From contig KV918910.1 in assembly GCA_002049455.2 (NCBI GenBank), forward strand, positions 1 to 64,000: a DNA stretch of 64,000 nt, written 5' to 3'. Shown here piece by piece: positions 18,285 through 62,797 of the stretch. The notes below the pieces were generated by a model. It ran no database searches, was not told where the DNA came from, and saw nothing but the letters and a program-made list of their open reading frames with translations. Positions within the stretch are counted from its first letter, which is position 1. Each line of letters begins with the position of its first letter. The position numbers were made by a program, and so were the translations under genes. The DNA comes from Porphyra umbilicalis (Eukaryota; Rhodophyta; Bangiophyceae; Bangiales; Bangiaceae).

Positions 18285-18309
18285 TTACACCCCCCCCCCA
18301 CCCCTTCCC

Positions 18310-19000: not shown

Positions 19001-19238
19001 CGCCGTCGGCGCCTATGCCGCCATTGCCGCCGTCACCGCCGTCGCTGCCGCCCCTGCCGCCGCCGCCGCCGCCGCCGTCGCCGCCGTCGCCGCCGCCGTC
19101 GCCCCTCTCGCCACCACCGGCGCCGCCGTCGCCGCCGCCGTTACCGCCGTTGCCCCGCCGCCCCGTGGCTGCTCCACAACCACCGCATGCCCGTGGCCGG
19201 GCGGCCTAGGCGGGCGTCGGGTAGCGGCGACATCGGAA

Positions 19239-27901: not shown

Positions 27902-27975
27902 GGCGAGCGCAAAAAACCTCACTTCAATACTGTACGTGTCCGCTCAGGTCCACAGCGGCCTCTCCCTCTTACTAC

Positions 27976-39444: not shown

Positions 39445-40079
39445 CCCGCGCGGGCGCCACTCCTGCGGCGCGGTGACCGTGTAGCGCAGGCGGATGCCCG
39501 CGGGACGCGCGCGCGCCCTCCCCCCCCCCCCCCCGAGCGGGGTGCGCGGCAGGGTACCTCCTTCCGACCCACCGCCGTCAGCAGCCGGTGGCGGCGGAAA
39601 AAGCGGCCTCGCACAGGGCCCCCCCCGCCCCCCCGTCCGCGGGGGCGGCCACGTACAGCGTCGGCGGGGGTGCAGACACGGGTGGCACGCCACCGCGCCG
39701 CGGGCGCGGCCGCGCCCAGAATAAGTCTGACGATCGGGGGGGGGACGGAGCGGTGGCCGACGAGGTGGGAGGTGCGGCGCTGGGCACGCCCCAGCACCGA
39801 GTGCCCGCCGCGTGGCGCTCGAGAGTTGAGGGGGGGGGGTGAGAAACTCGGGGCACCACAAAACGCACACGGGGGTGGCGGCCCCCGCGGGATGAAAACG
39901 CGGCCGCGCGGCCGGCCGGGCATCTCGGCTTGGTGGGGGGGGTGCGGGCACACGCCCGCGCTCTCCCCCAGCCGTGCAGAGCAGCGGGCAGTGGCAGTGA
40001 AGGAATGGGGGCGCGTCGGTGTATGGAGGGAGGGCAACAACCGACTTGCTCCTGCTGAGAAACGCGTGGGGGTCGTGGT

Positions 40080-40102
40080 GGGGGGGGGGGGGGGGGGGGG
40101 GG
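40080..40102. repeat. Poly-G tract, 23 bases
   Basis: Uninterrupted G run on the plus strand. Confidence 0.95.
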
Positions 40103-43100: not shown

Positions 43101-44334
43101 CATCTCCTTGGCCATGAAGGGCCGGTAACAGCTGTCACTGCGTGTTGCTTTCATTTCGTGGGAGGCGGCGCGCTCCAAAGAATACCTGTACAACATGGCG
43201 GGGCAACGCCGGAGCTTTACGCGTCTATCCTTGGCAGCATGCCGTGACCGCTGGTCCCTGTGGGCGAGAAATGGGCTGACGAGGCAGTCTACCGCGCGCC
43301 ACGGTTATCTAGACGTGTTCTCGCCGCTGGGTTGGAGCCCCCCGACGTCGTCCGTCAAAGCTCGTCAGGTTGAGGGCGATCACGGCAGCAGACGGTGTCC
43401 GCGTCCCGCGGGGCACCCGCTGGTGGCGCCACGGATCATTGCAAGGGGAGGAGGGGAAACATGTTGGCGCGCTCTCCGTGTGGGGGGAGAAAAGGCCTCG
43501 AGGCTGTCTACAGACAGTCTTCTATCCACGCCCGGTCGCCGGGGGTCACTGGTAACATCACTCGTCGCCCACCGCTGCTTTGGGTGGCCATGCGTGGTGG
43601 TGCTATGGAGGGCCCCACCGACAGCCTCACTTTTTTTCTGTGGAGCGTCTTCAGCCAAACAAGCCGATGCTGTGGGCTAACCGCAAACGACGCCTCGCTG
43701 TGGGAGCGCCATCGTCCCGTTGGAAGTATGGTCCTCAGCCGGGCTCTACAGGGGGCTTTGCAAGAAAATCACCCACGGAAAAGTGGCACCTACTTATGCA
43801 ACAGAGTGCGGGAGATTCCTTGAGGAGGTACCTTGCGCTGCCGCGGCGAGATTCTTTGTTGCACTGGAAAGCGCGGTATGCAGGCACGCTCGCGCGTGAC
43901 GGATCAAGCTTGGGGGTGCGAGGACCCAGTGCAGATGCCCAGGCTTGGGTGCCTGTCTGCCGCATGCCACTGCCGTGGCGGACAGGGTTGCCTCTGCGTG
44001 GCGTTGCGCTGACCGTGCCACGTCTGTGCGGGTGAAACGCGCATTGACACGAAAGTGGACGCGGCTCGGGCGAGGAGAAAGCAGAGAGGTCCTCGGGTCT
44101 GCCGATCCCGCGCCTGCGTCTTGACTGCCCCGTTTGGCCAGACTTCGGCGTGCGCTTGCGCTGCAGAGAACAAAGGTACCACTGTGAGCTGCCATTTCCT
44201 TCCCAGTCGAGGCTGGGAAGCAGCTGAGTAGCGCCAAAAACCAAACGAAAGGAGCAGCGTGCCAGGCTCGGACGACGTCATCGGCAACGCAATCGGGCAT
44301 GTGGTCTCGATGCTCGGGTCGTCAGGGGCACCTA

Positions 44335-44436
44335 CGCAGTGGTGACTAACCGGGGGTGGGATACAAACGACATTTGGCCATGTGGAAAAGCCAGAGCGAC
44401 GTGTGGGGTTCCCACCCCCGGTTAGTCACCACTGCG
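44335..44436. mobile_element. 102-bp foldback element with perfect 27-bp inverted repeats
   Basis: The left arm (44335-44361) starts CGCAGTGGTGACTAACCGGG. The right arm (44410-44436) is its exact reverse complement. Only 48 bp lie between them. The arms would form a strong hairpin. It could be a very small MITE, a foldback element or a recombination footprint; no clear target-site duplication is visible directly outside. Confidence 0.8.
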
Positions 44437-47329
44437 CTGGGGATGACGTACTTTCGATTGGGCAGTAGAAGAGTCTTACTTCCCTTGCTGTGCAGGCACG
44501 AGTGGCGCCGCTGCCGTTCTCGGAGTAGCCCCGATCCAGGAAGGTGGACGAAGCTCAGGAACACGCATCGCAGAACAGAAAATCAAATCGTAGTTGTCGC
44601 ACCAAGAATTCTTTCTGAGCGCACGCACCTGTAGTTGTTGCTGTGGATTTCATGCGAACTGAATAGACAGAGCACCCGCACCCGGCCCGCACCCCGACTT
44701 CAGCGTCCTGCTCACTCGCCAACCCACTCACGCCCACCAAACGATACCGCCAGCACACGTCGCCGCCCTCTGCCTCTCAGCCCGTGACAGCCTGTTCGTG
44801 GAGTGCACAAAGATAGAGCAGGGCGGCGAAACACCGGTGAGGTGGGCCCATCTGGGGTGGGGCTCACTCGCAGAGTCGGCGGAGGATACGTTCCGCTACG
44901 GGTCGGTGTGTGCGCGATCCACACGGTCAGACACTCAATCCGCCTCCGGCGGTGGTGACGGCAGGGATGAGCAGACGGCAAGCGAGTATGCAACCCCGGT
45001 CTGCTGCCCCCACTGCTACACTCCCTGCTCTCCTCTCCTCCCCACCCCCATCCCCCCGCGCAGCACGTGCCATGGAGGTTGCTGCCGTCGCTGCCGCCGC
45101 CGCCAGCGCCGCCGCCATGCGAGCGGCGTGCAACCCCAACCGCCCATCCTCGCGTCGCACAACTTTAAAACGCAGCATCACTGCCGACCAAAGCGTCCCC
45201 ACAGAGACGCATCGACGCACGCAGTGGCGGCCAAGGCGCGTCGACCGTCCGCCAAAGCCACACCGGGATGGTGCCGCTGCGGGCTGTCCGTGAGGCCAGG
45301 CCCGCGGGGTGCCGCCTCCCCCCCCATTGAGCAGACGCTGGTGTCGCGCGGCGGACGCGGCGCGTGCGCTCCAACGTCAGCGGTGGCCGGTGGTCCCGAC
45401 ACGTTTGCGGGAAGCCGGTGGAGCGGTCCCCCCGCGCCCGGCCGGCTGCACGGCCCGCGCGATCGCCGCCGCTCACGCGGCGGTCACTGGGACAACGGCG
45501 GTCCCGCGACGGTTGGTCGTTGCCGTGTGCAGCGGACAAACCGCGGGCGGCGGTGGCAGCGGCGGTGGCGCCCATCCTGACGACCCCAACGGCGCGGTCG
45601 CTGCCATGGCGGCCGCAGCAGCCGAGTCGGCGGATCCGTTGATAAAATCGCACGGACCGTTGCCGCCCCCGCGCAGCGGAAAAGTCTGCGTTGACCGCCG
45701 CCCGCACCATCGCCCGCGCTACAGCGTCGACCACAGCCGCCGCGTGCCCGCCGGGGAGCCACGCGACCGACCTCAGGGTCGCCGCGGTGCCGGCAGCTGC
45801 CGCCACCGCCACCCCGTCGCCGTCACCATCCACAGAGACGGCAACGACGGGGGCGGCGGCGCGGCCGGCGCGTGGCTGACCGTCGCCATCGCCGGCGCGT
45901 GCCGCGCGCGTGCACCGCGCGCCGACGATGGTGCGTCGGGGGGTGCATTGGGGGCGCCCCCACCGGCTGGGTGCCGGCAGACGAGCGCCCCCCTATATGA
46001 CACGCGGCGGCGACGTGTCGGTACCCCCGTCTGCGGAAAGGACGGGTGGCGGGTGGGGGGGGTGGAGCGGGCAGCGGGCGCCGTTGTACCATCCAGCGCG
46101 TGCGCCATTGGCGGTGGTTGTGTCAGCTGCGGGGGCGGGCGCGGCGCCGCGGGCGCGCGGCACGCGCACCATTGGCCACCCCGAGCGACGCGGTGGGGGT
46201 GGCAGCGAAAGTGGTCAGGGGGGGGGGGGGGGGGGGGGGCGCCGTCAGTGGAAGGCGGTGCTGGCGGCCAGATTGACAGGTCGAACGGCCCCAACCCCGT
46301 CGACGGGGGTGGCGCGGCCGCCCGCAGGCGGCACCGACACGGCCGCCTCCCCAATCATCCACACGGCGCGGGCACGCCGGCCAGCCCCGCGCCGTCAGCG
46401 GGCGTCTGCATGCGCGCGGCGGCTGCCGATGCGCATCGACGCAACCAAATCCGCCACCGCCCCCGGCGGCGGCGGCAAGGCGGCCGCCAACGCGCGCCCT
46501 CGAGCGTCCCGCGCAGCGGTGGCGCCGCCGCTGGGCCATGCCAGCGGCTGCTTGTGGTGCGGTCAGAGCGGGGACACCCCCCCCTCACTTTGGAGGCCCC
46601 GTCTTGGGCGCCCCCGCGGCGTGTCGTACGCGCAAAAAATAAAGCAAGTGGCGCGGACGGTCGGCCGTGGGCGGGTGCCTGCCGCCACGGCGACGGCGGG
46701 TGCACCCGGTGCGGCGGTCGGCCGACCGCGGTGCTGTTACAATTGTGAGCTGGGGCCTGTACTCCCGGGCTTTGATCCGGCAGTTGATCCGGCCGTTGGA
46801 TCCACGGAATTACGGGCGACACGTTGACCAATTGTCTGCCGAGGGGCAGGAGAGGGACGGGAGAGGGACGGGAGAGGGACGAGAGAGGTGCGCGGGGGGG
46901 GGCGGGCCAGTGCGCGCGGGGCGGCGCGGGTCTGCCCACGGCTGGGCGCTCGGTGCTGGTGGGCGGGCGTGACCCTCTACGAGTAGATAAGAGGCGGGAC
47001 GGTCGTGTCGGGAAGGACGACGACGTGGGTAGGAAGACAGAGCCTTTTATCTCACAACAATGACCACCACCAGCGTCGCGAGCGTCGCCAGCGGGTTTTC
47101 CACCACGGCGGGCGCTGCTGGGGACACTAGCGGGGATGGCAGTGGCCCCCAGCGTCTGGCAGACGCGTCTGCGCCTAGACGCTGCCGTGGACCGCGGCGG
47201 AGACGGAGACGGGCGTCGACGGTACAGTAGCCGGGGCGCTTCCAACAGGCAAGTGCTACCGGTCCGTGAAGCGCATTTGGTAGTTCTTTTTCGCGGACTT
47301 TGTCTGAAAGAAGCTGGATCAAAGCAGCC
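44437..47329. other. Spacer with GC-rich island, no supportable gene
   Basis: An island from 45.0 to 46.7 kb is open in several frames on both strands. Individual segments look protein-like (for example LRSVAWLPGGHAAAVVDAVA on the minus strand near 45770) but I cannot define a gene. A 22-G tract lies within. Confidence 0.35.
46218..46239. repeat. Poly-G tract, 22 bases
   Basis: Uninterrupted G run on the plus strand. Confidence 0.95.
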
Positions 47330-47345
47330 TCGCACCGAGCACCGG

Positions 47346-47412
47346 TAATGGCAGCATTCAATCCCAAAGGAGATGGGATTGAAGGGGTGCGAGGGGTACA
47401 ATCCCATTGGGC
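47346..47412 (+). repeat. Left terminal-type inverted repeat of the putative element
   Basis: Order of blocks going inward: TAATGGCAGCATTCAAT, then GATTGAAGGGGTGCG (47377-47391), then CATTGG. The same blocks in the same order appear on the opposite strand at 59431-59504, with the 15-bp middle block identical. An internal hairpin (CAATCCCA and TGGGATTG) lies inside this copy. Confidence 0.65.
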
Positions 47413-48402
47413 CCACGTGTAGGGGGGGCGTATAGGATCCAACCGCTGACAGTTGCGGCTCATTTGGGGGCTTGCAGCTGGCCACGTTGTTCTGCCAAAC
47501 GGCAGCGACCTCTGGTCCCGGCGGCGGCTCGCTCGCTGGCTTGCTCTCACTCACGCCCGGAGGACGCCCGAGTCGCTCTTCCTCGTCGCCTTGGCACTGG
47601 GGCCGACGTGCTCCCACCCCGCCCCGCCGCGCACCCTTCCCCCCCCCGCGCCACCTCACCGCCCACCCCCCCACCCCCCGCCCGCCCGCGCCGCCTCGCC
47701 GCGCACCCCCCCCCCCCCTCGCCCACGCCGACTCCGAGCCCACTCCACCCTTCCCGCTTTTTCACCTGTCGCCACCCACGCCGCCCACGCCGCCTCCCCG
47801 GGCAATTCCCCCCCCACCCACGCAGCATCCGCGCCTGCCCGCCCCACCCCGCCCATGCCGCCTCCCCGTCCACGTTGGCCTTCCCGCATTTCTACCTGTG
47901 GCCACCCACCCCGAGAGGCCGCGCCTCTCCATTTCTTGCCTCCCTACCACGCCCCCTCTTTGGCCCCGAGATCCAGATCCCGTCCGCTGCCCCCGCGTCC
48001 AACACGGGCGGGGGAACTGCGGCCTTCTCACGAAAACGGCCGAGGGGTGCGGATCCGGTCGCAGGCCGGCCTGCTCTCCGCGTTTTTGGTGTGCGCTGCG
48101 CCCCGGCAAAGACGTCGCTGTGTGGGGTGGCGGCCCTTACCACCTTGAGCGGCCGAATCGGCAGCGTGCTGCCGGTTGCGGGGTCAAGGAGGGTCGTTCG
48201 GGCCCCTTTTCCGCGTCGCCGCGATGCTCCCGTGGCGGTTGTGTCTCGCCGCGCCTACGACAAGGCTGGCGTCAATGTCGGCGGGCCCGCTGCCGGGGCG
48301 TCGGGGGGTGGGACCGGGCAGCGGCATACCGGCGGTCGTGCGGGCGGTAAGGGACGGCCAGTCGGGACGAGGCGGGACACGTGGAAAACGTTGTCAGCCG
48401 GC

Positions 48403-51400
48403 ATGATGCGGGCTGTGTGCGCGGCGGTTGTGCACGGCGGGTTTGACTTTTTGGTTCGGCGTCTCTTCCCTCTCTCCCCACCCGCTGAGTTTAAGGACAA
48501 GCTGTTCTCGGACCTGCAGGAGCGGGCGGAGGAATACTACAGGGGCGAGGTTTGGCCGCTCCGCTACGCCTTTGGCGTATTGTCTCGATTTATCAACGGC
48601 ACGACGGACGAGAACGGCAAGGTGCTGACGCCGGCGGTGGTGACGACCTGGTTGGGGGAGGGTGGCTTCATCTCGTGCTCGTGCGTTGGCCAGAGCGGCC
48701 ATATCGCCCATTTACGGGCGTCTAGTCGAGGCCGAGCGTCCGCCGCAGCCGCTACGCCGGCGAGTGACGAGGCGTGTGGAGCTGCTGATGGCAGGGCTGC
48801 TGTCGGTGTTGCTGCAGATGGTGGGGCTCCGATCGGGGCTGCGCTCGCGGGCCCAACCGGTGTGGCCGTGGCCGACGCCAACTGTGCTCACGCGCGCACT
48901 TTTGCGACGACGATTCAACGGCTCTGCCGACGTCTCGGCGTACCCGTCTCCGATTTCCGGGCGGCAGTGCCGGGCGTTTTTGGTAACAGCGACGCGGCCG
49001 ATGGTGATGCATCTGCTGGTGCTGTCGGCGGATCGGGAGCCGGGGATTGGGACGCAGAGGGCCCCCTTGAGATCTTCCAGACGGGCCAGAGCGTCGTAGC
49101 GGTGGTAGTGTCGGGCCTGGGTCCTTGCAAGGTGGTAGCGCCCGTGCGGTGCACGCTGCACGTTACGAGCTGCTCTTTTTGCGACAATGCCGCTGGCTTC
49201 TCGTGCGTGCACGCGGTGCGGTGCCGGGGTGTATCTCGCGGCGGCGGCACGGGCGCCCGCGGCGCTAACGCCGTGAGCTTGGAGGACGACTGCGTCGACG
49301 GTGCCAGATCACGGTTGGCGCTGCCCATGTACAACTGCAAGAAGGCCGTTTGCGCCAATCTGGACGTGTGCGAGATGATGCGGGAGGGGAAGCCGCTTGT
49401 CGTCCAAGCCCCGCCGATGTGCGACAAGTGTGGCACTCCCAGGGGCTGCGACACGCGCGTGGACGTGGAGGAGGGGGTCATCATGTGCAGTGGGGGCTAC
49501 TGCGTGATGCAGCTGCAGTCCTTTATGTGCACGAACGCCGAGTGCCATATGCGCGTCTTCCCCGACGGGCGCGACGCGGGGGTGGTATTGTTGAGCTCGT
49601 CCACGGCGGCTACTGTCACGATCATGCGGGACATTGCGCATGCGATGACTACGGGCGGATCGACTTTTGGCTCGTGCTACAAGCAGTGGCACTCCAACTA
49701 CGCCAGCGTCCGGGACTCGGGGCGTTACCCCTGCATGGCCACGGTCCCGACGCGGTCACGGCAGACCATGACCACGCTCTTCTGGTGGACGCTGCACCTC
49801 ATGACCAAGTCCCCCCCGCTGTGGGCGTTCAAGTGCGGCTCGTGTCAAGATAAAGACGGCCGCTTCCGCGTGTTGACGGCCGACGGCATCTGGCTCGGCT
49901 ACCTCAAGCGGCTCGCGTCGGGCCGCTACGTGAACCCGTGCGAGGAGTGCAAGTCGGTCCAAAAGACGGTGGAGGCGGCGTCGCTCCACCCGTCCGAGTG
50001 GGTTCGGCGGTTCGTGCGGAGCGTTCTGAAGCAGCCTGTTAAGGCGGTCGTGATAAAGGCCGGCCAGCTCGGCAGCGCGCAGAGGGCGCTGGCTTTTTTG
50101 TGCCCCGCGGCCCTCCCCAACGTGCGTGAGCCGGACGTGACGCCGGCTGGTACGCTGGCACTCACCCGCCTCCGCGCTCTACTCTGCGCGGTGTGGAACC
50201 TAGAGCAGGCGACGCGGACGCTCTGCGACGCCATTATCACGCACGTGAAGAAGCTGATCGCGCCGACCAACGCGTTGCCGGCAAGCACCGTTGACGCACA
50301 TCGGCGCACTCTTCAGGACCTGGCAGCATGGAAGGCCCGCGTGGCTGGACTCCCCGTTGCCCTCGCCCAACCAGTAGCTGCGATCAACCTGGGAGACCAA
50401 GGTGCCCCAGCGGGTGGTGACGTTGGACTCGGTGGCGGCGTTGAAGACGGCGGCGGTGATGAACCGGTTGACGGTGCTGCTGGGGTGGGGCAAGGCGCCG
50501 ACTCCGACGCTCCTGACGGGGCTGGCGCTTTGGGTGGCGGCGTCGGTCGGGCACGTGGAGCTGCCGGCCGGGCCCGGCAGCCGGCTGCGACCGCCTGCGC
50601 GCATCACTACGACCGCACGACCGCCGAGCCAGGCGACCCACGGTGCCTGCGGTCGACGGTGAAGGAGCTGGGCACCTCCCTCTACAAGGACGTTTGCTCC
50701 TTCTGTGTGGCGGTTGCGATCGACCCTGTTGTGAACGGTTTCAAGCCGCGCCACGTCGCGTCGCTCACGCAGATGAGCGACGTGCTCCGCGGGGCGGATG
50801 CGGCTGCCAGGTTGGACACGCTCATTGCGTATTGCCCGGGGCGTGCGGAGGCGATTGCCGCAGTCAACGAGGAGGACGTTGCTGCTGCCGCGCTTTTGGC
50901 GGAAAACCGCATGCTTCTATCGTTCCTGTCGGCCGTCTCCTCTGACGCGGACCTTTTTGCTTCCATACGCTTTGTGGTCGCCGACCTGCTGCTGTCCATC
51001 CGCGCGACCATTGAGAACAACCACACCCTACGGGACGGCACCGACGGCAGCTCCATGCGCTACTACTCTAGGTGGGGCGACCCGCGCCTCACCCCGGCCG
51101 AGCTGCGCGCACGGTTCGTAGCCGAGTACCCCAACACGCCCGAGGAGCCGCAGGTGACCGGCGCGTTCTTCCCCGGGCTGTCGCGGTGCCGGCCGAACGC
51201 TTTCGCGACGGTGGAGGAGGCGGATCTTGGTACGTGTGCCAAGCACTACAAGGACGTCCACAAGCACTACTCGCCGGGCACATTCACCATTTGCTGCGCG
51301 TGTACGCACCCGAAGATGATTGGTTTTGTGGTGCTAGACAAGCGTGAGGGGCCGCCCGCGCTTCTCAACACTATCCTCTCTTACTTTGCCTTGCTTCCCT

Positions 51401-51897
51401 CCTTTCTTGTTTACGATTTCGGTTGTGGTGCGCTCCGCTCCGCTATTGGCAAACTGGGATTTCTCTGTGCCCTGGTTGTCTTTGTGTCGGATCTCTTTCA
51501 TATTGTCAACCACCTGTGCAGTGACGCTCCTCACCCCCGCTCCTACGCGGGCTTGGACAGTGCCAACACCGTTGCTCACGAGCAGCGCAACTCCCCGATC
51601 AACCTGATGCGGCGGTCACTGCGGGCATGCGGGCAGCAGGAATACATGACGATGCTGCAGGTGGCGAACATCTTGTACAACGTCATGGCGCACGCGAAGA
51701 GCACCTCCCCCTACCCACTGCACGACGAGTACAACTACGCTCAGTTCTATTTCTCGCACAACCCGTGCTGCTGTGGTTGCGGATACGCGCCGCCGACACC
51801 CGAGCTACCGACGGCACCCGCTGTGCCCGCGGCAGCGGCACTTCCTGTCGCAGCGGCCATGACCGATGATGTGTGGATGGAGGGCGACGATTGGTAG
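48403..51897 (+). CDS. KDZ (Kyakuja-Dileera-Zisupton)-type transposase
   Basis: 1164 residues from ATG 48403; the frame stays open back to 47407 but that part is C-rich and low complexity, so the true start may be upstream or in another exon. Zinc-binding clusters come first: a SWIM-like C-x2-C-x7-C-x-H (C257, C260, C268, H270) and later CDKCGTPRGC, MCSGGYC and FKCGSC. The RNase H-type catalytic residues fit the KDZ pattern: Asp494 in TADGIWLGYLKRL, Asp1005 in VYDFGC and Glu1060 in AHEQRNSP, with a conserved SDLFH (Asp1030) between the last two. An ICCACTHPKMIGF cysteine motif precedes the second Asp. Residues about 650-750 are a Gly-rich insert. The pattern is also seen in animal HMGXB3-like proteins derived from such transposases. 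The frame is intact, so it could be functional. Confidence 0.8.
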   Translation: MMRAVCAAVVHGGFDFLVRRLFPLSPPAEFKDKLFSDLQERAEEYYRGEVWPLRYAFGVLSRFINGTTDENGKVLTPAVVTTWLGEGGFISCSCVGQSGHIAHLRASSRGRASAAAATPASDEACGAADGRAAVGVAADGGAPIGAALAGPTGVAVADANCAHARTFATTIQRLCRRLGVPVSDFRAAVPGVFGNSDAADGDASAGAVGGSGAGDWDAEGPLEIFQTGQSVVAVVVSGLGPCKVVAPVRCTLHVTSCSFCDNAAGFSCVHAVRCRGVSRGGGTGARGANAVSLEDDCVDGARSRLALPMYNCKKAVCANLDVCEMMREGKPLVVQAPPMCDKCGTPRGCDTRVDVEEGVIMCSGGYCVMQLQSFMCTNAECHMRVFPDGRDAGVVLLSSSTAATVTIMRDIAHAMTTGGSTFGSCYKQWHSNYASVRDSGRYPCMATVPTRSRQTMTTLFWWTLHLMTKSPPLWAFKCGSCQDKDGRFRVLTADGIWLGYLKRLASGRYVNPCEECKSVQKTVEAASLHPSEWVRRFVRSVLKQPVKAVVIKAGQLGSAQRALAFLCPAALPNVREPDVTPAGTLALTRLRALLCAVWNLEQATRTLCDAIITHVKKLIAPTNALPASTVDAHRRTLQDLAAWKARVAGLPVALAQPVAAINLGDQGAPAGGDVGLGGGVEDGGGDEPVDGAAGVGQGADSDAPDGAGALGGGVGRARGAAGRARQPAATACAHHYDRTTAEPGDPRCLRSTVKELGTSLYKDVCSFCVAVAIDPVVNGFKPRHVASLTQMSDVLRGADAAARLDTLIAYCPGRAEAIAAVNEEDVAAAALLAENRMLLSFLSAVSSDADLFASIRFVVADLLLSIRATIENNHTLRDGTDGSSMRYYSRWGDPRLTPAELRARFVAEYPNTPEEPQVTGAFFPGLSRCRPNAFATVEEADLGTCAKHYKDVHKHYSPGTFTICCACTHPKMIGFVVLDKREGPPALLNTILSYFALLPSFLVYDFGCGALRSAIGKLGFLCALVVFVSDLFHIVNHLCSDAPHPRSYAGLDSANTVAHEQRNSPINLMRRSLRACGQQEYMTMLQVANILYNVMAHAKSTSPYPLHDEYNYAQFYFSHNPCCCGCGYAPPTPELPTAPAVPAAAALPVAAAMTDDVWMEGDDW

Positions 51898-52909
51898 TTG
51901 CTGGCCTGTGCTTCGCCTCGTTTCTGTTCCCGTCTTTTTTCTCGAGTCTTGCACATGTCGTCTCTTTTTTTGGACGCTGAGGGCAAGAGGGGCAGTATGG
52001 GAATACAAACAAATGTGAGGCACACGTGCCCTTCCTTCGACCTTCGAGACAAAAGGAAGATATGGGCGCCACTATGCTTCCGTGGGGGGCTGATTTCCCG
52101 CGCTTGCTGCTTGTTGTCTCATTGTCGGTCACTCATGCGCGGTACTGGGGACGTAAATGGGCGAGTAGCACTGGAGACACGCGGTCAGATGAGAGACATG
52201 AGCGCGTACAGCCGATGCGCCAAAAGTTTGCACGATGCCAGTAATTTGAGGGTGCTACTATGCGGCATCGCTTCACGACTCCCCGATCTGCAGGCTTCAA
52301 TGGCATTCTATGGAGGCCTATTTGGATTTTTTGAAAGGTGGTCCCCGTTTGCAACTGAGCTCGCTGTGCTGTTGTGCCTTCCTGGTGCATTCGCTGGTCC
52401 CGTGCAGCCCTCTGTCCCGTCCTCGCCCCCGCCCTTGAAGTGTGCATGCTCAAGGCTGCATAGTACAAGTAGAGGGGCTGCAGGGTTGCTCTTTCCTTCC
52501 CTGAGGGTCTGCAGGCAAGAGACTGCCTCGTTTCGTACACACAACGGCGGAGGAGGCGGACGATGCCCCACTGCATCGCGTGGCCCCCGAAGGACGAAAC
52601 CTGCCCAGCGGGTGAGTCGGGTGTGTGGCCAGGACGCAGAATGTCGCCGCGACCTTCTTCGGCGCTAAAAATGTCGATGCATTTCCTGGGGCTAATGGGG
52701 GGAGCGGCAGTGCCGCCCCCCGCACTGCCTCCCCCCGCCGCTCGCCTTTCAATAGGCCATTCAGAACTGGCTGGCAGACCGTAATAACACAACATAGGTA
52801 TGCCCTGGCCCTGCAGATGCCCCCAGAGCTTGCTTTTCTATTACCGCGTCGTTTTCCCCTTGTGGTGCACATGAGCACACGCAGTCCATTCTCCATGTTC
52901 CATTTGACC
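51898..52909. other. Spacer inside the putative element
   Basis: Short frames only; no domain recognised. It separates the transposase from the inverted duplication. Confidence 0.4.
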
Positions 52910-53024
52910 ATGAAGGAGGCAGAAGATGACGGTTCTGGCGGCACGGGCGCACTCAGCACAGTTGCTTTACCCAGAAACGTCTTCTTAGTCCCAGTTTGTC
53001 GACTATTGTTTTTGGTCGCACACT
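52910..53024 (+). repeat. Inverted duplication, left arm (MKEAE arm)
   Basis: Translated on the plus strand from an ATG at 52910 it reads MKEAE, then GGTGALSTVALPRNVFLVPV. The arm at 53084-53197, read on the minus strand, gives MKEAE and EGTGASSVAELPRVAFIPTV. The two arms are 115 and 114 bp, face each other, and are about 60 bp apart. Similarity begins at the ATG in both and about half the residues match, so they may be 5' ends of two related small genes or decayed element ends. Confidence 0.65.
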
Positions 53025-53083
53025 CGGTCCGAGTCGGCAAGCCCTCCGGTCCGTACCCGACAAGCACGCCAGATCGGCGCCCG

Positions 53084-53197
53084 AGTGCCGTCAAAAAAAA
53101 AGGATGCACAAACCGTGGGAATAAACGCTACTCTGGGTAACTCGGCTACGCTGGATGCACCTGTGCCCTCAAAAGCGGACAATTCTGCCTCCTTCAT
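53084..53197 (-). repeat. Inverted duplication, right arm (MKEAE arm)
   Basis: Minus-strand partner of 52910-53024, beginning with ATG at 53197. DNA identity between arms is roughly two thirds, with a shared TTCTGCCTCCTTCAT block at the outer end. No stop-free gene of convincing length continues from either arm. Confidence 0.65.
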
Positions 53198-54732
53198 GCC
53201 CAAAAGACCCCCTCAAGAAGTGAATACACACTGTGTGCTTACAATGCCGCTTATACAGGCTGGACATAGGGAGGAGGGAGTCCCAAAGAGTATCTGCGGT
53301 TGCTATATAGGGTATGTGCCGCTCATTCGCATAAAAGGACATCCGCTGGGCCAGGGTGACCCGAAATCTGTCGTCACAGAGGTAGCTTTGCCCCCGGCTG
53401 GGAGTACGCTGCGATTCTCATGGCCATTGAAGATGGTGTGCACGGCCACTCAGGTATGTACCGCCGACAACTGCCATTCTCAAATGGGCTAACCGAGTGC
53501 GAGAACATACTAGGGAGCGATATCCTGTGCGGCAGCATGTCCAGCTTCGGCTCCGAGCGCACTGGCTTTAGAAAGGACGCAGTCGACCCACGACCCTTCC
53601 GAATCTTTTGCTGTTCATGAAGTGCAAGGGGCGTGCCATCAAGTTCGATAGGTTCATAATCGGACCGGTCAAGGAGGCCGTCTGGCCTTCTATACAGAGT
53701 ACCTGTGCGGCTCTTGGCCCCTTGGCACAATCAAATGTGCTCGCCACGGTTCACCAAATGGAGAGAACTGACGCTTGTGAGACGGTATGAGCATGTCCAC
53801 ATCCGGCAGTGCCCACACAGGGCACGTGAGAGGGTGAAGCGCTGCAGGTACGCCGACCGGGCGACGCAAGAAGAAGGGCGAAACTATCGGACTTATCTTT
53901 CTTTCTGTAGTGAGAGAAGACAATTCGTGTATTGTCTGCTTCCCGAGCAGTTCATGGATGTCAATTGATTTTTCCACCTCGTGTGCGCTCCCGCAACGTT
54001 TGACCGCTGGGTCATGCCCAGTGCGACTGTTAGATTTGACGTGGCACTGTTTCTGGCCACAGACGCGTTGCACCTGCTTGATGGCTCATTGCTCAAGGTG
54101 GCTGAGAAGCAATGCTTTTTGTTTATGGGTCATGAAGGGGACGTCTGACGTTCGCGCGTTTTTTTGAGCCCCCGAGATCATACCTGGGCAAGCTCACCTG
54201 GGAGCGTCAGATTCGGCTGCTTGGTGTTTCGCTTTTGCTGACCGGCGGCGATTGTGTCCTCCGCATGCAGCGCCATACACAGTGTGCGTCTGCTTGCTCC
54301 GCCTTTTCGTTCCCGCTTCATCACACGGGCCGTTGGGGCGCGCCGCCTTTTTTTCTGGCAGGCCCGACCGCGGACCTCTCCAGACGTGCCGCAAACGAGC
54401 TGCCGCGTGGCGCTTCGGCGCGCGTTCCCGCGATTTTTGATCTCGCCCCACACCGGCGGTAGGACCCCGGCTGCTCCCTCTCGCTCCCCCCGCTACCCTC
54501 GCAACCCCGACACCCCGTAGTCCCGGTGTCAGAGCCCCCCAGCCCGCGCGTACGTGCTTTTTCTCCCTCTCTCACCCCTTGCGTGCCCTGTTTCGTTCAT
54601 CCCACGACGCTATCCTGTGCTGATCTGTGGCGAGGCGGGCACCCGCCGCGGCTGCCTGGTGCCTCTGCGTGCCGAGCCCCCCGACCGCGGCTGCAACGGT
54701 ATCGTTGGGCACCCGCGCTTCGGCGGTGGCTG
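53198..54732. other. Spacer upstream of the helicase gene
   Basis: No recognised gene. The last 300 bp are pyrimidine-rich, as seen upstream of the transposase start. Confidence 0.4.
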
Positions 54733-54752
54733 CCCCCCCCCCCCCCCCCCCC
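54733..54752. repeat. Poly-C tract, 20 bases, six bases before the helicase ATG
   Basis: Uninterrupted C run on the plus strand ending at 54752; the helicase start codon is at 54759. It would lie in the 5' untranslated region. Confidence 0.95.
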
Positions 54753-54758
54753 TACGCC

Positions 54759-56195
54759 ATGGCCACTTTTGACCTCGACCCCTCGCAGCAGCAGGCGTGG
54801 GAGCAGTTTTTGGCCCGCAAGAACGTGGGGCTGTTTGGACGCGCCGGCAGCGGCAAGTCGACGGTGTTGGGGCGGGCGATCAGCCATGCGCGCCGGGTGC
54901 ACGGCGTCGCCAGCGTGGGCGTGGTGGCGTGGACCACCACGGCCGCCAGCATCATCGACGGCTGCACCTTCCACAAGTTTTTGGGAATCAAGGTCGATGA
55001 CCGCGCCAAGGAGGTCATCCTGAAGAAGGTGTCGGGCAACAGGTTCGTGCGCGACAAGCTCAGAAAGACCAAGGTCATCTTCGTCGACGAGGTGCCGCAG
55101 TTCGACTCCAAGTGGTTCTCGGTGTTTGAGTACCTGGTGAGGCAGCTGGCACCGCCGTACAAGCACGCCCTACCGTGGGGCGGGGTCCAAGTGGTGGGTA
55201 CGTTTACGGGTGGCTGCGGTATCTGCTTGTGCCCTGTCTGTTCCCACTGTGCTTGGGTCTTTTGCACTGTCTCGTTCTTTCTGCATATGCTCGGCTGACT
55301 GACGTGGGGCCCCTTTCTTGTTCCTTGTTGTGCTGTAGTGGGTGGAGACCCATTGCAACTGGGGCCTGTCTGTCGAGTGAAAGAGACTGCTCCCCCCCCC
55401 CCAGTGTTTATGTGTCGTGTGTTTCGTGATTCCTTTCTCTCCCGCTACGGCTTGCTAGTTTTCCTCCTGGGTACGCACCGGCAGTCGAGCGGGGGCTGGT
55501 TCGTGCAGTGCCTGGACCGTATCCGCGTCGGCACCTTCACAGACATGGACCTGTTGGTGCTCAATGCCACTTCCGCAGGTGTCACAGACGCGGAGTGGGC
55601 CAGCCGCACGCAGTTGCGGGCGCTCAACAAGGACGTGAACGAGTTCAACAGGGAAAAGCTCGCGGAGCTACCGAGAGCCACGACCGTGTACACCTGCGCC
55701 GACACAATCAATCCTCGCATCACCCACCCCGCGCGCATCGAGTACATCAAGAAGCGGCTGCAGCAAGTCGCGCCGCTCGACGTGACGGTGAAGGCCGGCG
55801 CCGTCGTGATGCTAACCCGGGAGGTGGAGGGCATCCCAACGGCGACGCAGGGGACGATCGAGCAGTGTGGCGAGGTCTCGGTGGACTGCGTGTTTGGCGG
55901 CAAGAAGGTGGTCGTGCCTTTAGTGCCATTTGACATCATCGACAACTGCGGGACGCTGCTGGGAACCCGCAAAGCCATGCCCCTCTTGCTCGCGTGGGCC
56001 ATGACGATCCATCGCGCCCAGGGGGCTAACCTCGACTCGTTGGCAGTCGACTTTTCCAATTTGCGTTGGAGGGAGCCGGGACTGGTGTACTCGGGCATCT
56101 CCCGCTGCCGTTTGTTTGAGCATTTGTACGTGCGTGGCCTGACCCGGGACCAGATCGTTGTGTGTGCCGATGCGATGAGTTTCTACAACCTGTGA
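54759..56195 (+). CDS. Compact PIF1-like DNA helicase, two exons
   Basis: Exons 54759-55197 and 55339-56195 encode 431 residues. The superfamily 1B motifs are in order: motif I GRAGSGKS (27-34, K33), motif Ia AWTTTAASIIDGCTFHKFLG, motif II VIFVDEVPQF (D110-E111), motif III GGDPLQLGPV (148-157, restored exactly by splicing), motif IV LGTHRQSSG, then GAVVMLTRE, motif V AWAMTIHRAQGANLDSL, and motif VI VYSGISRCRLFEHLYV. It is little more than the helicase core and lacks the long N-terminal extensions of nuclear Pif1. It should unwind DNA 5' to 3'. Lying between a KDZ transposase and the right end repeat, it probably serves the element's transposition or replication rather than the host. Frame and motifs are intact. 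Confidence 0.9.
55198..55338 (+). other. Spliceosomal intron of the helicase gene
   Basis: 141 bp, starting GTACGT and ending CTGTAG, with pyrimidine-rich sequence near the 3' end. Removing it joins CAAGTGGTGG to TGGGTGGAGAC and rebuilds helicase motif III in frame. Confidence 0.9.
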
Positions 56196-56307
56196 GTGTG
56201 TGTGCGTGTTCGTGATGCTTGCTTCATGCCCGAATGTTCTTCTCTTTCTTCGCAAAAACATACATTGCCATGCGATCAAATCCCGTAACGCTCCCGCCCG
56301 CAAACAC

Positions 56308-58556
56308 TCAACAAGAACACATGTACCTCGCATCCCAGAGCAAAAACACACGCTGGGGTGCCCCGTCAGATGGCACGGTGTCTGCCATCGTCTTGGGCAG
56401 CACATCATCAAAGTGTTGCTTCTTGAAGTGGGCATACGGTGCGCTCTCGTAAAAGGCCATCGTGAAAGGATAATCGGCCGCGGTTTGCCCGCTTGCGCAC
56501 GTCACCCCAAATACTTCCACCGCAGGCATATGAGCGACGATAGCTGCCCTCATCTCCAGCTCGGATGATCCCCCCGCTGATGACCCCCCCGCTGTCGAGG
56601 GCGGGACGGCGGGCGAAGCGGCGCGCCACACGCAAGCCGTGCCCAGAAAGGCAGCCCCGGCTTCGGCCGGCGGTCGGTCAAACAAGCGCACACGAGGACT
56701 GCGCAAAGGAGAAAAAGGTGTCAGATATCCGCAAGAGGTACAGAGCAATGGCCAAACGAAAAGGGAAACCTCAGTCGTTGAGAAGAGGAGCACTGCACAT
56801 ACCCAATAGACTCTACCGGCCAGGCGATTCTGTACGAGGGGGAGATTGATTGCAGAGGAACAGGCTCGGACGCGGGGTTGCCTTTCTCAAGGCACAGTAT
56901 CGGGTCTTGCCCAAAGGGATAAGTGACGCCTCCACAGCCGTCTGCCACTCTTCGTAGAAAGCAAGGAACAACGGAGAGAGGAGTGGGGCTGTTGTGGTGG
57001 GTGCTCCACTCGGGGTGCAAATCGGCGGTGGCCACCACCCGCCCGTCTGCCATCAACGACCCCGCGCGAAGCTCCTTCACGACAGCCTCAAACGACCAGC
57101 TCCCGCTGTCGGCATGACCCACGCCGGCCCTTCCACGCCTCCCGCCCGTCTCCCGGCCAGGTGCTGCGGCTGCAGCGACCCCACCACCCCTTCCAGCTGC
57201 ACCGTCGCCGACAGTGGCTCCCCCGTGACGTTGGGATCCCGCCACGGTGGGCGGCAGCGACGTAGAGCGGCTCCGCTTGCGGCTCTTGCTTCCGCCCAAC
57301 GTGGCCGACGGCGCCGTAGTCTCGAAGGGAGCCATTGCCCCGCGGGAAAACAGCCCTAGCAGCCACAAGAAGAATGGGTCCTTGAGAGCCTTCATGCACA
57401 GCACGACAGCGAGGGAGGTGGACGTCTTCATGTGGTGCGAGTTCTTGAGCAGCGGAGTGATGTGCTCGATCGCCTTATCCTCCAGGTTGAACTTCACCAT
57501 CAAATCGCGCAACGCGTCAGGCGTCAAGATGGGGTAGGGGTGGGAGACGGGGACGGCTGGAGGCTCCGACAAGGACCTCTCAACCAGCGTGTCGACCACA
57601 AACTTGTAGAGAGCCGAGAACTCAACCAGCCGCTTGCGCAAGGACTCGGGGCGGTTCGGCACCGACAGCTCCGAAATGGTCTCCTGCACCAGCGCGTCCG
57701 GAATCTCGAGCGGGTCCTTCTTCACTGGCGGCGGCTCCCGCCTCGACGAGCCGCGACCGGTGGCCATGAGGATGCGGGCGGGGGGAACGGTCAAGCCCGG
57801 CACCGTGAAGTTCTTGGGCAAGGTGTAGCCATCAACCACGGGTGGAAGAGCGGGGGAAGAGCGGGGAGACGGTGAAGGACCGCGAGACGCCGAGGAGCCG
57901 ACAAGGGATAAAGAGCGGGGAGCGTGCGAAGGGAGGGGGGGTCGCGGAGGGTGGGGAGGAGGTGATGGGCGAGGACGGCCACCGTCTTGAGCCTGCTCCA
58001 ACGTGGCCGCACCCCCAGCCGCCGCCGTCCCACCGGCCCTACCGTCATCTGCGCGCCCCGCCTCACTGGGCTGCAGCGCCACATCTATGGAAGTGGCACC
58101 GCCGTTGGCAGCGTCCACGTCCATACCCTCCCCGCCACCGAACTCATCAGCTACACAGCCGTCCGTGTCAACCCCTGCTCGGCCACCCTGCTGCACGACC
58201 GACGGCGGCAGGTTGACGTCGTCCATCGGCAAACGTTTTTCGACAGCAGACCGCTTCTCGACAGCAAGATCCTGCAGCGCGGTCACGACGCCATCCACCG
58301 CGACGGACACTTGGTGCTCCAACTGAGTGGAGATCGGCCCCGTCGTGTCGCCGTCCACGTAATTTGAGCAGAAGGCGAGCATGGCGTTGCGCCCATCATG
58401 GCGCACCATGGTCACCGCCAGCAAGACCTCGTTGCCAGTGCTCTCCTGCACCTTTTGACAGGTTTCTTGCAGCACCTGCGTCAGGTAGACGCATGCATGC
58501 GTTGACGAGCAGCCCAACAATCCCGCAGCAGATGAGCTCGTCGGCAAGATGTCCAT
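56308..58556 (-). CDS. Element-associated protein of unknown function, two exons
   Basis: Exons 58556-56803 and 56698-56308 give 714 residues from the ATG at 58556 (MDILPTSSSAAGLLG). An in-frame ATG at 58685 would add 43 residues that begin with a hydrophobic, signal-like stretch. N-terminal part: a compact segment (VLQETCQKVQESTGNEVLLA ... AMLAFCSNYVDGD). A Pro/Ser-rich linker follows. The middle has a helical domain (RPESLRKRLVEFSALYKFVV ... TSLAVVLCMKALKDPFFLWL) and then a basic cluster (SKSRKRSRS). After the splice: PRVRLFDRPP ... EMRAAIVAHMPAVEVFGVTC ... PYAHFKKQHFDDVLPKTM. I recognise no family. It converges on the helicase gene, 112 bp apart. Position inside the putative transposon suggests an accessory role such as DNA or end binding, but this is inference. 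Confidence 0.75.
56699..56802 (-). other. Spliceosomal intron of the unknown element gene
   Basis: 104 bp on the minus strand, starting GTATGT and ending TTTGCGCAG after a pyrimidine tract. Splicing joins ...VESIG to PRVRLFDRPP in frame and avoids a stop 14 codons after the donor. Confidence 0.8.
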
Positions 58557-58723
58557 TGCTGCCCCCCCTCGCCAACCACCCCCTGACACGAGCAGCCCCC
58601 CCACAACAGCCCCACTGCTGGTCCCCGCGTGCCCCCCCCGCAACAAGAGGAAGCAAACGAAGAAGCAGCAGGTCCTCACGCACATCAGCCACGGACCCCC
58701 CTCAGAGCCTCAAAGTGCCACCG

Positions 58724-58826
58724 GTGCCCCTGGCGCGCCCGGCGGCGCGCCGCCCCCCAAAAACGGCCCACACCAGGCCCCTCACAACGGACGGGCGCGC
58801 GGCGGCCCCGCTACCAACGGAGCAGC
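58724..58826 (+). repeat. Direct repeat in the right arm of the element, copy 1
   Basis: About 103 bp containing CGCCCCCCAAAAACGGCCCA and AACGGACGGGCG; a copy lies about 185 bp downstream. Confidence 0.75.
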
Positions 58827-58907
58827 GAAAGGGAAAAGCAGCAGGCAGAGACATACACAGGCCGCGAAGCTCAGCTCGGTGCCGGCGGTGAGCCGTGGGC
58901 TGCAGGC

Positions 58908-59011
58908 GGGGCCCCGGGCGCCCCCCGCCGAGGGCCGCCCCCCAAAAATGGCCCACGCCAGGCCCCGCCCAACGGACGGGCGGGCGGATGCCCCAAGGCC
59001 AACGGAGTAGC
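58908..59011 (+). repeat. Direct repeat in the right arm of the element, copy 2
   Basis: Copy of 58724-58826 in the same orientation, with CGCCCCCCAAAAATGGCCCA. Subterminal repeats of this kind are common near transposon ends and may bind the transposase or an accessory protein. Confidence 0.75.
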
Positions 59012-59430
59012 TGCAGGTCACAAAAGCGCCCAAAGAACAGGAAGAGAAAGCGGCTTCGCGCCACCCGTGCCCTGCAGGGACGCCACCGACCCGCGCCGAC
59101 GACAGGCACCGGACGGGAGACGGCCCCCCCCAGTGCCTCGGCACACTCGCTGCACAGGCGGGGCGCACTCCAAAAGACGGCGCTGCCCGCGAGAGTGCCC
59201 CACGGCGTCGTGGTGAAGAGTGCACAGGCGTCCAGGAGGTTGCCCATAGGACCCGTGAGGTGGACGGCGGGGGTGGGCGACGGGCGGCCGCGAGGTCATG
59301 CGGGACGGTGCACACGCGGGAACGACGCGGCGACGGCGAATCGGGCGTGATGACCGACACGTTGCATCGTGGATGGCATTCCTGAACGATCATGTAAGCT
59401 TATGAAACCACCAATGAGGGGCATGCGATC

Positions 59431-59504
59431 GACCAATGAGATGCCGGCGCACCCCTTCAATCGTATCGGCCTGACTGCAGGGGTACAATTGTATGCTGCC
59501 TTTA
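59431..59504 (-). repeat. Right terminal-type inverted repeat of the putative element
   Basis: Read on the minus strand from the outside: TAAAGGCAGCATACAAT, then GATTGAAGGGGTGCG (59462-59448), then CATTGG. It matches the left copy except for an 11-bp length difference and scattered substitutions. It ends about 140 bp before the ornithine carbamoyltransferase start codon. Confidence 0.65.
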
Positions 59505-59644
59505 CTCCACTTGTCGCACCCAATCTCCGCCCATCCCCTTTGCCGCCTCGACCGCCCCCCCCCGAAACGATACCGCCTGCTGCGCTCGTCCCCGCCCGCC
59601 TCGACCCCCTCCCACCGCGTGTGCGCACCCCCCCCCCCGGTGCC

Positions 59645-60796
59645 ATGGCTTTTGTAGGTACCCCGCTCCCGTCGGTGCGCGCCTCTGCCCAATCAGGCAA
59701 TCCCCTCGGTGCACTGCGGTCGCGTGGGCGGGCGCCGGCGCCGGCGCTGCGCGCCGCCCGCGGCGCCCGCGCCCGCACGGTCGTGAGGGCAGCGGCGGCA
59801 CCTACAACGTCCGATGCTCCCCTCTACCCTCTGACGTCTACATTGACGTCGGGGCTGCCCGCCGGTCAGCGCCACTTTCTCCGCGTCGACGACTTGAAGA
59901 CCGAGGAGCTGCGAACCGTCCTCTCGACGGCCGCCGCCCTCCGCGCGCGCATCGAGGGCGACCCAGACTACTCGCCGCTGTCCAAAAAGACGCTCGCGCT
60001 GCTCTTTGCCAAGGCGTCGGCGCGGACGCGGGTGAGCTTTGAGACGGGCGCCTTTATGATGGGCGGCCACGCGGTCGTCCTCGGCCCCGAAGTCGGCGTC
60101 GGCACCCGCGAGTCGCCCAAGGACGTGGCGCGGGTGTTGTCGCAGTTCAACAACCTGATTATGGCGCGCCTGTTTGGCCACGACCAGCTCCTCGAGTTGG
60201 CCGCCGCGTCCACGGTGCCGGTCATCAACGGCTTGACCGACTACAACCACCCGTGCCAGCTGCTCGCCGACGCGCTCACGATCATCGAGTGCCGCGGCTC
60301 GGTGGACGGCGCCAAGGTCGTCTACGTGGGGGACGGCAACAACATGGTGCACTCGTGGTTGGAGCTCGCGGCGGTGTTGCCGATGGACTTCGTGTGTGCG
60401 TGCCCACCGGGCTACGAGCCCCTCCCCGAGGCGGTGGCCGCCACGCGCGCCGCCGGCCTCAGCACCGTTACCATTAGCCACGACCCGATGGACGCGGTCG
60501 TCGGCGCCGACGTGATTTACACGGACGTGTGGGCGAGCATGGGCCAAAAAGAGGAGATTGAGGCGCGGGAGCGCGCCTTTCGGGGCTTCACCGTCGACGC
60601 GGCCATGATGGCGGCGACAGGCAAGACCGACACGCTCTTCCTCCACTGCCTGCCGGCGGAGCGCGGGCGGGAGGTGACGGACGAGGTGATGGAGTCGGCC
60701 GCGTCGGTTGTCTTCCAGCAGGCGGGCAACCGCATGCACGCGCAAAACGCGATTGTGCTGCACTGCCTCGGGCTGTTGGACACGGTGTCGGGGTGA
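59645..60796 (+). CDS. OTC: Ornithine carbamoyltransferase, plastid-targeted
   Basis: 383 residues in one exon from ATG 59645 (context GGTGCCATGGC). The longer open frame upstream runs into the element end and is not used. Residues 1 to about 48 are rich in Arg, Ala and Ser with almost no acids, like a chloroplast transit peptide. Carbamoyl-phosphate site: SARTR at 125-129; HPCQ at 202-205; ornithine-binding SMG in DVWASMGQKEE near 298; catalytic HCLPAERGREV from 334 with Cys335. The sequence is closest in style to plant enzymes. It converts ornithine and carbamoyl phosphate to citrulline in arginine synthesis, in the plastid. It is convergent with CSN2. No damage seen, although its promoter must be very short or lie partly within the putative transposon end. 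Confidence 0.96.
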   Translation: MAFVGTPLPSVRASAQSGNPLGALRSRGRAPAPALRAARGARARTVVRAAAAPTTSDAPLYPLTSTLTSGLPAGQRHFLRVDDLKTEELRTVLSTAAALRARIEGDPDYSPLSKKTLALLFAKASARTRVSFETGAFMMGGHAVVLGPEVGVGTRESPKDVARVLSQFNNLIMARLFGHDQLLELAAASTVPVINGLTDYNHPCQLLADALTIIECRGSVDGAKVVYVGDGNNMVHSWLELAAVLPMDFVCACPPGYEPLPEAVAATRAAGLSTVTISHDPMDAVVGADVIYTDVWASMGQKEEIEARERAFRGFTVDAAMMAATGKTDTLFLHCLPAERGREVTDEVMESAASVVFQQAGNRMHAQNAIVLHCLGLLDTVSG

Positions 60797-61474: not shown

Positions 61475-62797
61475 TCACAGCTGCAGCTGCGCAGTCACGG
61501 CGGCCTGCAGCTCCACCACGCGCTCCCCCCAAACCTCGATGGCCTTGTACTTGGCGTCCCATGCGCCCTCCGTCTCGAGCACCACCTCCCGACGCACCTG
61601 GTCAATCTTGCCCTTGACCTTGCCGTCGAGGATGAGGCTCACCAGCAGCGCCTCGAGCTCCTCTTCCGGCACGTTGAGCCGCTTGGACGCATATGGAAGA
61701 CCCATGCGGGTGTAGCCGACCAACAGCCGTAGCAGCACCTGCGTGCGTACAGTGCGGAGCAGCTCCGCCAGGTGGTCGGCCACAAACGCGTCGCCCATGA
61801 TGGACTGCTTGTGGGTGGCGAGGATGCGTTCAAACTCGCCAATGTCCTTGGACGAGTAGGCCGCCCGCAGGGCCGTCATGCTCACAATCTCGGGGTTGGA
61901 CGTGTACGGTTTGGCTTCGGGCGAGTCAAACGGGTCAATGTCCGACACGGCTAGCATGTTGGCCAGCACCAGGTACTTCAGGCAGGCGATGCGCTTGGCT
62001 ACCCCCGCCTCGTCATAGTTCTTGAAGGCTTCGAAAAAGTCCGATTGGGCCGCCTCGTACTCGCGCTGGCGCATGCGCATCTTGCCGCCACACTCACGGA
62101 TGACGCCCATAATCCGCGGGTGAGGGATGGCCGACTTGACCGTCAGCGCCCGCTCGTACAGCGTCTTGAGCCGCTTGTTGTTCTTGGTAGCCGTGTACAA
62201 CTGGATCTCCAGCGCAAACACTTCGAGCAGCTGGGTGCCCTTTTTCTGGTCGTCTTGGCCGTCGTCGCCGATGCAGCTGCGGTGGAGCTCCTTGAGCACC
62301 TTGGCCAGCCGCCCGTACTGGCCACCGTCAAACCAAAGTTTACCGAGCTTGAGGTTCGTCTTGAACCAGAGGCGCTCGTTGGACGCCTGCGCCAAGGCGC
62401 TGAGAGTGGTTTCGTAAAAGGAGTGCAGCAGCTCTACCTGTTGGGCAGACTGGGCGGTCGACACGTAGTCGAGGATGCTGTTGATGACCTTCTCCGACAC
62501 GTTACGAGTCACGGCGGAGCGGATGTAGCCAAGCAGCTCCGAGTAGCGCGTGAGCATCGCCGAATAGTTGCCTTGGCGGAAGTGCAGCTTGACAATCTGC
62601 TTCAGTGCTTTGAAGCCCCAACCGCCCGGGGTGCCCTCCAGCTCGATAACGCCCTCAAAGCCAGAGAGCGCGCCAGGGGGGTCGGTATGCAACAACCCCT
62701 TGGCGGCATAGTAGGCGTTCTCAATGGCGACATCTTCTTCTTCATCGTCGTCCGTCTCGTACTCAAAGCCGTAGTCCTCCTCCTCCATGTCCGACAT
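61475..62797 (-). CDS. CSN2: COP9 signalosome subunit 2
   Basis: 440 residues in one exon, about the usual length for CSN2. It starts MSDMEEEDYGFEYETDDDEE, the acidic N-terminus typical of the subunit. Helical repeats follow, with strongly conserved blocks: GGWGFKALKQIVKLHF, YIRSAVTRNVSEKVINSILD, FYETTLSALAQASNERLWFK, KKGTQLLEVFALEIQLYT, IPHPRIMGVIRECGGKMRMR and DFFEAFKNYDEAG. A PCI domain covers about residues 250-420. CSN2 is a scaffold of the COP9 signalosome, which removes Nedd8 from cullins, and it contacts the cullin substrate. The PCI family is shared with proteasome lid subunits (RPN6), but the matches above are CSN2-specific. No irregularities. Confidence 0.95.
   Translation of the reverse strand: MSDMEEEDYGFEYETDDDEEEDVAIENAYYAAKGLLHTDPPGALSGFEGVIELEGTPGGWGFKALKQIVKLHFRQGNYSAMLTRYSELLGYIRSAVTRNVSEKVINSILDYVSTAQSAQQVELLHSFYETTLSALAQASNERLWFKTNLKLGKLWFDGGQYGRLAKVLKELHRSCIGDDGQDDQKKGTQLLEVFALEIQLYTATKNNKRLKTLYERALTVKSAIPHPRIMGVIRECGGKMRMRQREYEAAQSDFFEAFKNYDEAGVAKRIACLKYLVLANMLAVSDIDPFDSPEAKPYTSNPEIVSMTALRAAYSSKDIGEFERILATHKQSIMGDAFVADHLAELLRTVRTQVLLRLLVGYTRMGLPYASKRLNVPEEELEALLVSLILDGKVKGKIDQVRREVVLETEGAWDAKYKAIEVWGERVVELQAAVTAQLQL

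Follow-up and report, generated by a model that had tools for sequence, protein, structure and literature searches.

A candidate 12.2-kb transposon of a divergent KDZ lineage with its own PIF1 helicase, very probably from a red alga

The stretch of DNA analysed here, hereafter the window, comprises 64,000 nucleotides (KV918910.1) and corresponds to contig C150 in an assembly of 83.8 Mb, the one genome in which copies of the element described below were sought. At 47330-59520 it holds a transposase gene, a PIF1 helicase gene and a third gene, a block that the initial annotation had proposed to be a single KDZ transposon between related inverted repeats. The comparison of ends bears this out and refines it: the block consists of an element of 12,177 bp (47337-59513), with termini 5'-GAG...TTG-3', plus the two copies of a perfect 7-bp target-site duplication, TCGCACC, at 47330-47336 on the left and at 59514-59520 on the right. 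At the left junction TCGCACC is followed by GAGCACCGGTAATGGCAGC... from position 47337, and at the right junction ...CTCCACTTG runs up to 59513 and is followed by TCGCACC. Local alignment of the two ends revealed terminal inverted repeats (TIRs), at 47345-47410 on the plus strand and at 59433-59505 on the minus strand, that are imperfect, measure about 70 bp with gaps and begin 8 bases inward. TIR matches were 22/22 bases for the copy on contig C167 and 23/23 bases for that on C9.

The transposase gene comes first, on the plus strand, as an open frame encoding 1164 residues from its first ATG (48403-51897). This frame is open already from 47383, and the part upstream of the ATG resembles, by eye, the corresponding parts of C167 and C325; the true start of the protein may perhaps lie within an upstream exon. 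The helicase gene follows on the same strand in two exons, located at 54759-55197 (with the Walker A motif GRAGSGKS and motif II, DEVP) and at 55339-56195 (with GDPLQLGPV, TIHRAQG and SGISRC), which would encode 431 residues and carry the superfamily 1 (SF1) motifs. The third gene is convergent with the helicase gene and occupies the minus strand, with exon 1 at 56803-58556 and exon 2, which would encode the well conserved C-terminal part, at 56308-56698. Its predicted product has 714 residues, the length given in the initial annotation. Splice sites in the window were placed using GT..AG signals and homology, and none of the three genes so deduced contains an internal stop, in line with the lack of obvious lesions reported at the outset.

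The KDZ-type assignment comes from a comparison between profiles. When four members of the lineage of the window transposase were compared with four proteins of the same genome matching the Pfam KDZ model (PF18758), hhalign returned a probability of 97.9 and an E value of 4e-13 over 342 columns, with the YDxxC, xDxxH and xExxx motifs of both sets in register. The predicted catalytic core of the window protein (51415-51582, plus strand) is formed by D1005 (YDFGC), D1030 (SDLFH) and E1060 (AHEQRN), which align with D559, D586 and E617 of the canonical KDZ transposases. A single core of this lineage used as query reached at least 150 related cores in the genome, including 22 of the 28 PF18758 loci, one of which (on C162) was reached directly at an E value of 6e-9. 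Because the profile comparison is this strong and the core search extends to PF18758 loci, we consider the two groups to be kin, and sequence comparison places the window transposase in a divergent KDZ lineage. Paired cysteines preceding the core are invariant in the four rows of the alignment; a zinc-cluster region (residues 330-436; 49390-49710, plus strand) gave a weak CxC4 match that was seen in only one of the four members and fell below the Pfam cut-off (E 0.0047; 17.2 bits versus 26.9). No transposase relatives were found in viral contigs. The PF18758 transposase on C162 (L038, C162:97301-99900) ends in an Ulp1-type protease domain (PF02902, E 1e-15).

The second protein matched the PIF1 family PF05970 at an E value of 1e-16 and, among PDB profiles, the solved PIF1 structure 5o6b at 1e-28, and is predicted to be a compact PIF1 (SF1B) helicase, as had been anticipated. 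The third protein gave no Pfam match when its four-row alignment was searched, and no PDB profile match better than E 0.5; none of its relatives was found in viral or prokaryotic contigs. Related proteins are encoded on C167 (45% identity), C9 (43%) and C6 (25%), and the protein is a member of a conserved family for which no relative was found outside these elements. A 75-residue C-terminal piece used as query had 26 genomic matches at E values up to 10, a count that is a lower bound as the pair at C9b, a distant member of the group, was missed. All 26 were arranged tail-to-tail with a PIF1 match, at a distance of no more than 256 bp in 25 cases and of 2.6 kb in the remaining one. A role of the helicase on G-quadruplexes found no support: the element has 10 such motifs, compared with 29 for the equally long, more GC-rich left flank.

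The ends of the element recur elsewhere in the genome. Elements in which both ends could be located were found, besides the window, on C9, C167, C1, C41 and C298, and all six are flanked by a perfect 7-bp duplication that differs from one element to the next: TCGCACC in the window, TGTGAAG on C9, TGGCTGT on C167, TGCAGCC on C1, CGAAACA on C41 and CACATAG on C298. The register of the ends was chosen by visual inspection of C9 and the window, which makes the remaining four elements independent tests; all four passed, with a chance of about 1 in 16,000 for an accidental match in each. Common end motifs, together with a perfect duplication belonging to each of the six, go beyond what chance would give. 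The aligning of copies to fix the boundaries, recommended in the initial annotation, has given the same end motifs in every two-ended element. Places with one end only (C28, C463, C70 and C325) were kept out of the duplication count; no right end was found for C325, and no end motifs for C6 and C9b, with the end pattern of the window transposase lineage.

Three of the six elements came from a genome search with the end motifs, which returned 6 left-end and 7 right-end matches and none in reversed controls. These copies, on C1, C41 and C298, are only 2,391-2,395 bp long, are 97.7-99.0% identical to one another and have their duplications in the same register. In coding terms they resemble none of the three window genes. 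They have their first 83 bp in common with C167, plus about 60-100 bp of the opposite end, and 118 bp of the left end with C9 at 80% identity. By their structure they are non-autonomous copies and attest to the recent mobilisation of such ends. Short DNA matches to bases 280-545 of the query, present at dozens of sites, were not accepted as family copies; we read them as low complexity because the left part of the element is C-rich there (tandem repeat at 47632-47724).

A search of the genome with the whole 12.2-kb block, another check suggested beforehand, recovered diverged copies on C9, C28, C463 and C167. In translated searches these showed the three genes arranged as in the window, whether intact or truncated at a contig end or by rearrangement; the C463 copy is without its left part, and C42 retains only the left part of a transposase. 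Counting C6 and C9b (the helicase gene of the latter is split by about 5 kb), all three genes occur in one order and orientation at five places (the window, C9, C167, C6 and C9b), and in the first three of these, mapped outer ends and duplications enclose them all. This preservation of one gene order among the copies, in three cases between mapped ends, shows that the block does not consist of separate host genes. Some of these regions show further rearrangement: most of the C9 element is contained in an internal 7.74-kb tandem duplication (C9:420721-436088, 98.9% identical), with a satellite array of at least 10 kb and a period of about 164 bp upstream (C9:405001-415326; L009, L010); the PIF1 gene of the distant C9 member carries an insert some 5 kb long (C9:472533-477498); and the C463 element lies between direct repeats of roughly 5 kb (96%; C463:20001-26761 and 39940-45342).

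The association of the genes was then counted over the genome. Three groups were compared: this lineage (38 cores at E values up to 1e-25 plus a hand-placed fragment on C41, 61% identical, 39 in total), the 28 PF18758 loci recognised by Pfam, and the 88 other related cores left in the core search, which covered the best 150 of 185 candidates. A PIF1 match lay within 12 kb of 22/39 lineage cores and 23/28 PF18758 cores, whereas this was so for 9/88 of the others, the numbers expected from uniform placement being 1.5, 1.1 and 3.5, respectively; the groups behind these figures were defined by score and family match rather than by a tree, and the counts rest on distance, most loci being without mapped ends. 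PIF1 was downstream on the same strand at 17 of the 39, 18 of the 28 and 5 of the 88 cores. These counts are the union of two queries, of which the compact helicase by itself gave 22/39, 16/28 and 5/88, and PF05970 by itself 18/39, 22/28 and 9/88. The nine PIF1-bearing loci of the last group include C230, C261, C142, C12:357517 and C26; on a post hoc inspection six of the nine score in the PF18758 range, and these six may be PF18758 members. At one PF18758 locus (L040, C356:40440-42659) a separate and longer PIF1 frame of 739 residues lies downstream.

The third gene is more narrowly distributed, as it was found within 12 kb of 17/39 lineage cores and of none of the 116 others. For 13 cores, the closest copy inside this range lies downstream on the opposite strand. 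Conversely, 18 of the 26 pairs of helicase and third gene have a lineage core within 13 kb, and for three more it is 17-27 kb away.

Rates of nonsynonymous (dN) and synonymous (dS) change indicate constraint between elements. Between the window and C167, where synonymous changes are near saturation, dN and dS were 0.263 and 1.237 for the transposase core, 0.339 and 1.233 for helicase exon 2, and 0.489 and 1.383, and 0.309 and 2.005, for two parts of the third gene, so that each of the three genes has a dN lower than its dS. A segment of the C167 third gene (residues 543-655; dN 0.55, dS 2.2) was excluded, as it contains a stop, probably through intron read-through. Among close copies the signal of selection is little or absent: the transposase cores of C28 and C463 are identical, and the comparison of C463 with C9 gave dN and dS of 0.024 and 0.039 for the helicase and of 0.035 and 0 for exon 2 of the third gene.

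We read the block as a complete, probably autonomous transposon of a divergent KDZ lineage that includes the transposase, the PIF1 helicase and the 714-residue protein, with a probability of roughly 90%. Several results weigh against this. None of the four lineage members matches the Pfam KDZ model at E≤1. The initial annotation had pointed to transposase copies devoid of the other two genes as evidence against a single element, and this was in part observed, although other copies keep all three: neither helicase nor third gene was present in the 28 kb read around C325, and no PIF1 was detected within 12 kb of 17/39 lineage cores. The transposase alone may perhaps be enough in some of the helicase-less copies, or such copies may be broken. 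In addition, 5/26 helicase-third gene pairs have no lineage core within 30 kb, and the C28 and C9 cores, with a dN of 0.036, a dS of 0.024 and a stop in C9, carry no signal of selection; the C9 copy looks to be decaying.

As to what the helicase does, we lean towards a part in mobilisation rather than a passage as cargo. In such a mechanism the transposase would recognise the inverted and subterminal repeats and its KDZ core would cut in a stagger, leaving the 7-bp duplication. The helicase and the third protein, which we propose as its partner because the two genes are tail-to-tail at all 26 third-gene places located, could unwind or strand-displace DNA at the transpososome; alternatively, they could act in gap repair or re-synthesis at the donor or the target. 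PIF1 would then belong to the mobilisation machinery, and the 2.39-kb copies would have been moved in trans. A broader proposal, that PIF1 is a core component of transposition in two red algal KDZ groups, each combining a D/D/E transposase with a dedicated helicase (and, in the window lineage, a partner protein), is tentative and may well prove to claim too much. If it were true, it would amount to a helicase-assisted and perhaps partly replicative DNA transposition, which we did not find described for eukaryotic RNase H-fold transposases. The unequal presence of PIF1 beside the D/D/E transposases of the three groups offers a built-in comparison of what a helicase is worth to a transposon of the cut-and-paste type, and the defined ends, the short non-autonomous copies and the lesion-free three-gene element make the system tractable in reporter assays.

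The helicase and the third gene might instead be cargo that aids the persistence of the element, for instance by helping it to escape silencing or by making the host region easier to replicate, and takes no part in the transposition reaction. KDZ elements are known to carry accessory genes, such as TET/JBP in fungi (available text of PMC12730594), and the lineage cores with no helicase detected, like the modest excess of PIF1 around the 88 other cores (9 versus 3.5 expected), are easily accommodated by this explanation. We nevertheless regard it as rather unlikely, since the helicase-third gene pair is retained, in a constant orientation, at identities as low as about 30%, dN is lower than dS between elements, and two KDZ groups of the genome possess PIF1.

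A nested insertion, in which a separate helicase-third gene element landed inside a KDZ element, would explain the pairs far from any lineage core and the four loci where the nearest helicase lies on the opposite strand, upstream of the core. Against it stand the constant arrangement of the genes at the five places listed above, the uniform position of the third gene at 13 cores, and the outer ends and duplications that, in the window, C9 and C167, enclose the whole set of genes, and we consider it quite improbable. Helitrons, which transpose by a rolling circle, carry PIF1-type helicases, and 16 PF05970 matches in the genome, located in frames of 796-1866 residues that may be of Helitron or host origin, cover almost the entire profile. 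Even so, it is highly improbable that the window helicase is a Helitron remnant, as the 431-residue gene is complete, has no Rep domain and is conserved from one element to the next, and its only Helitron match among PDB profiles was Helraiser (7lcc), at 6e-6 against 1e-28 for PIF1. We give almost no credence to an accidental grouping of host genes, or to a segmental duplication: large duplications do exist in C9 and C463, but the six different perfect duplications come with common ends and the related genes are scattered over many contigs.

The host is very probably a red alga, as the initial annotation had supposed, a point we take as likely rather than proven. Contig C665 has eight near full-length and two partial phycobiliprotein matches, the matches of its allophycocyanin beta to PDB chains reach an E value of 1e-96, and adjacent frames are presumably ATP synthase genes; the contig fits a red algal plastid, a glaucophyte host or a cyanobacterial contaminant contig being less probable. 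In the window, the element is followed by an ornithine carbamoyltransferase gene (frame to 60796), whose likely start codon comes 132 bp after it (59514-59645); because of this distance, the element appears to sit in the promoter or 5' leader of that gene. A PCI-domain protein gene adjoins the carbamoyltransferase gene on the minus strand (61475-62797). Elsewhere the window contains a tandem array of units of about 77 bp, 10 copies in one family (27974-28879), and a GC-rich array of 9-48-bp units (18267-19193) that is possibly low-complexity coding sequence.

Helitrons resemble the window element in having a helicase within a eukaryotic transposon and differ from it in that the latter has TIRs and target duplications, and no Rep family among the Pfam matches of its three proteins. 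With the KDZ superfamily the element shares a D/D/E core aligned with the canonical one, a large size with TIRs, a short duplication and accessory genes, although its transposase falls below PF18758 detection. According to the available text of PMC12730594, Zisupton and Dileera make 8-bp duplications, unlike the 7 bp found here in six of six elements, and Kyakuja makes one of 7 bp, as here, with CA..TG termini and no TIRs in place of GAG..TTG termini and TIRs; by its ends, then, the window lineage is outside all three groups named there. The Cryptococcus elements KDZ1-KDZ3 are alike in being KDZ elements of about 9-11 kb with TIRs that were shown to move, and differ in duplications of 8 bp (4-8 bp in KDZ2/3) and TIRs of 139-241 bp (PMC12810828, available text). 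The word helicase appears once in the available text of PMC12730594, about Helitrons, and not at all in that of the main text of PMC12810828. No description of a KDZ-PIF1 pairing was met in the literature searched, whose coverage left out the founding Zisupton (2012) and KDZ (2014) papers and the Bostrychia genome paper (2025). The nearest co-mention, in the part of its source at hand, is a fungal orthogroup table where the two are in separate groups with no pairing; among the matches listed, as far as their text was available, work on PIF1 with DNA transposons or red algae concerned Helitrons/Helentrons or olive wilt. The closest precedent for a helicase in a D/D/E transposon is that of KolobokH and Kolobok-1_CCri, the latter from a rhodophyte, which belong to another superfamily and carry a RecQ helicase instead of PIF1 (PMC9587614, available text). 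Compared with these systems and within the literature searched, our results suggest that the pairing of a KDZ transposase with a PIF1 helicase is an unreported variation on the helicase-bearing DNA transposons.

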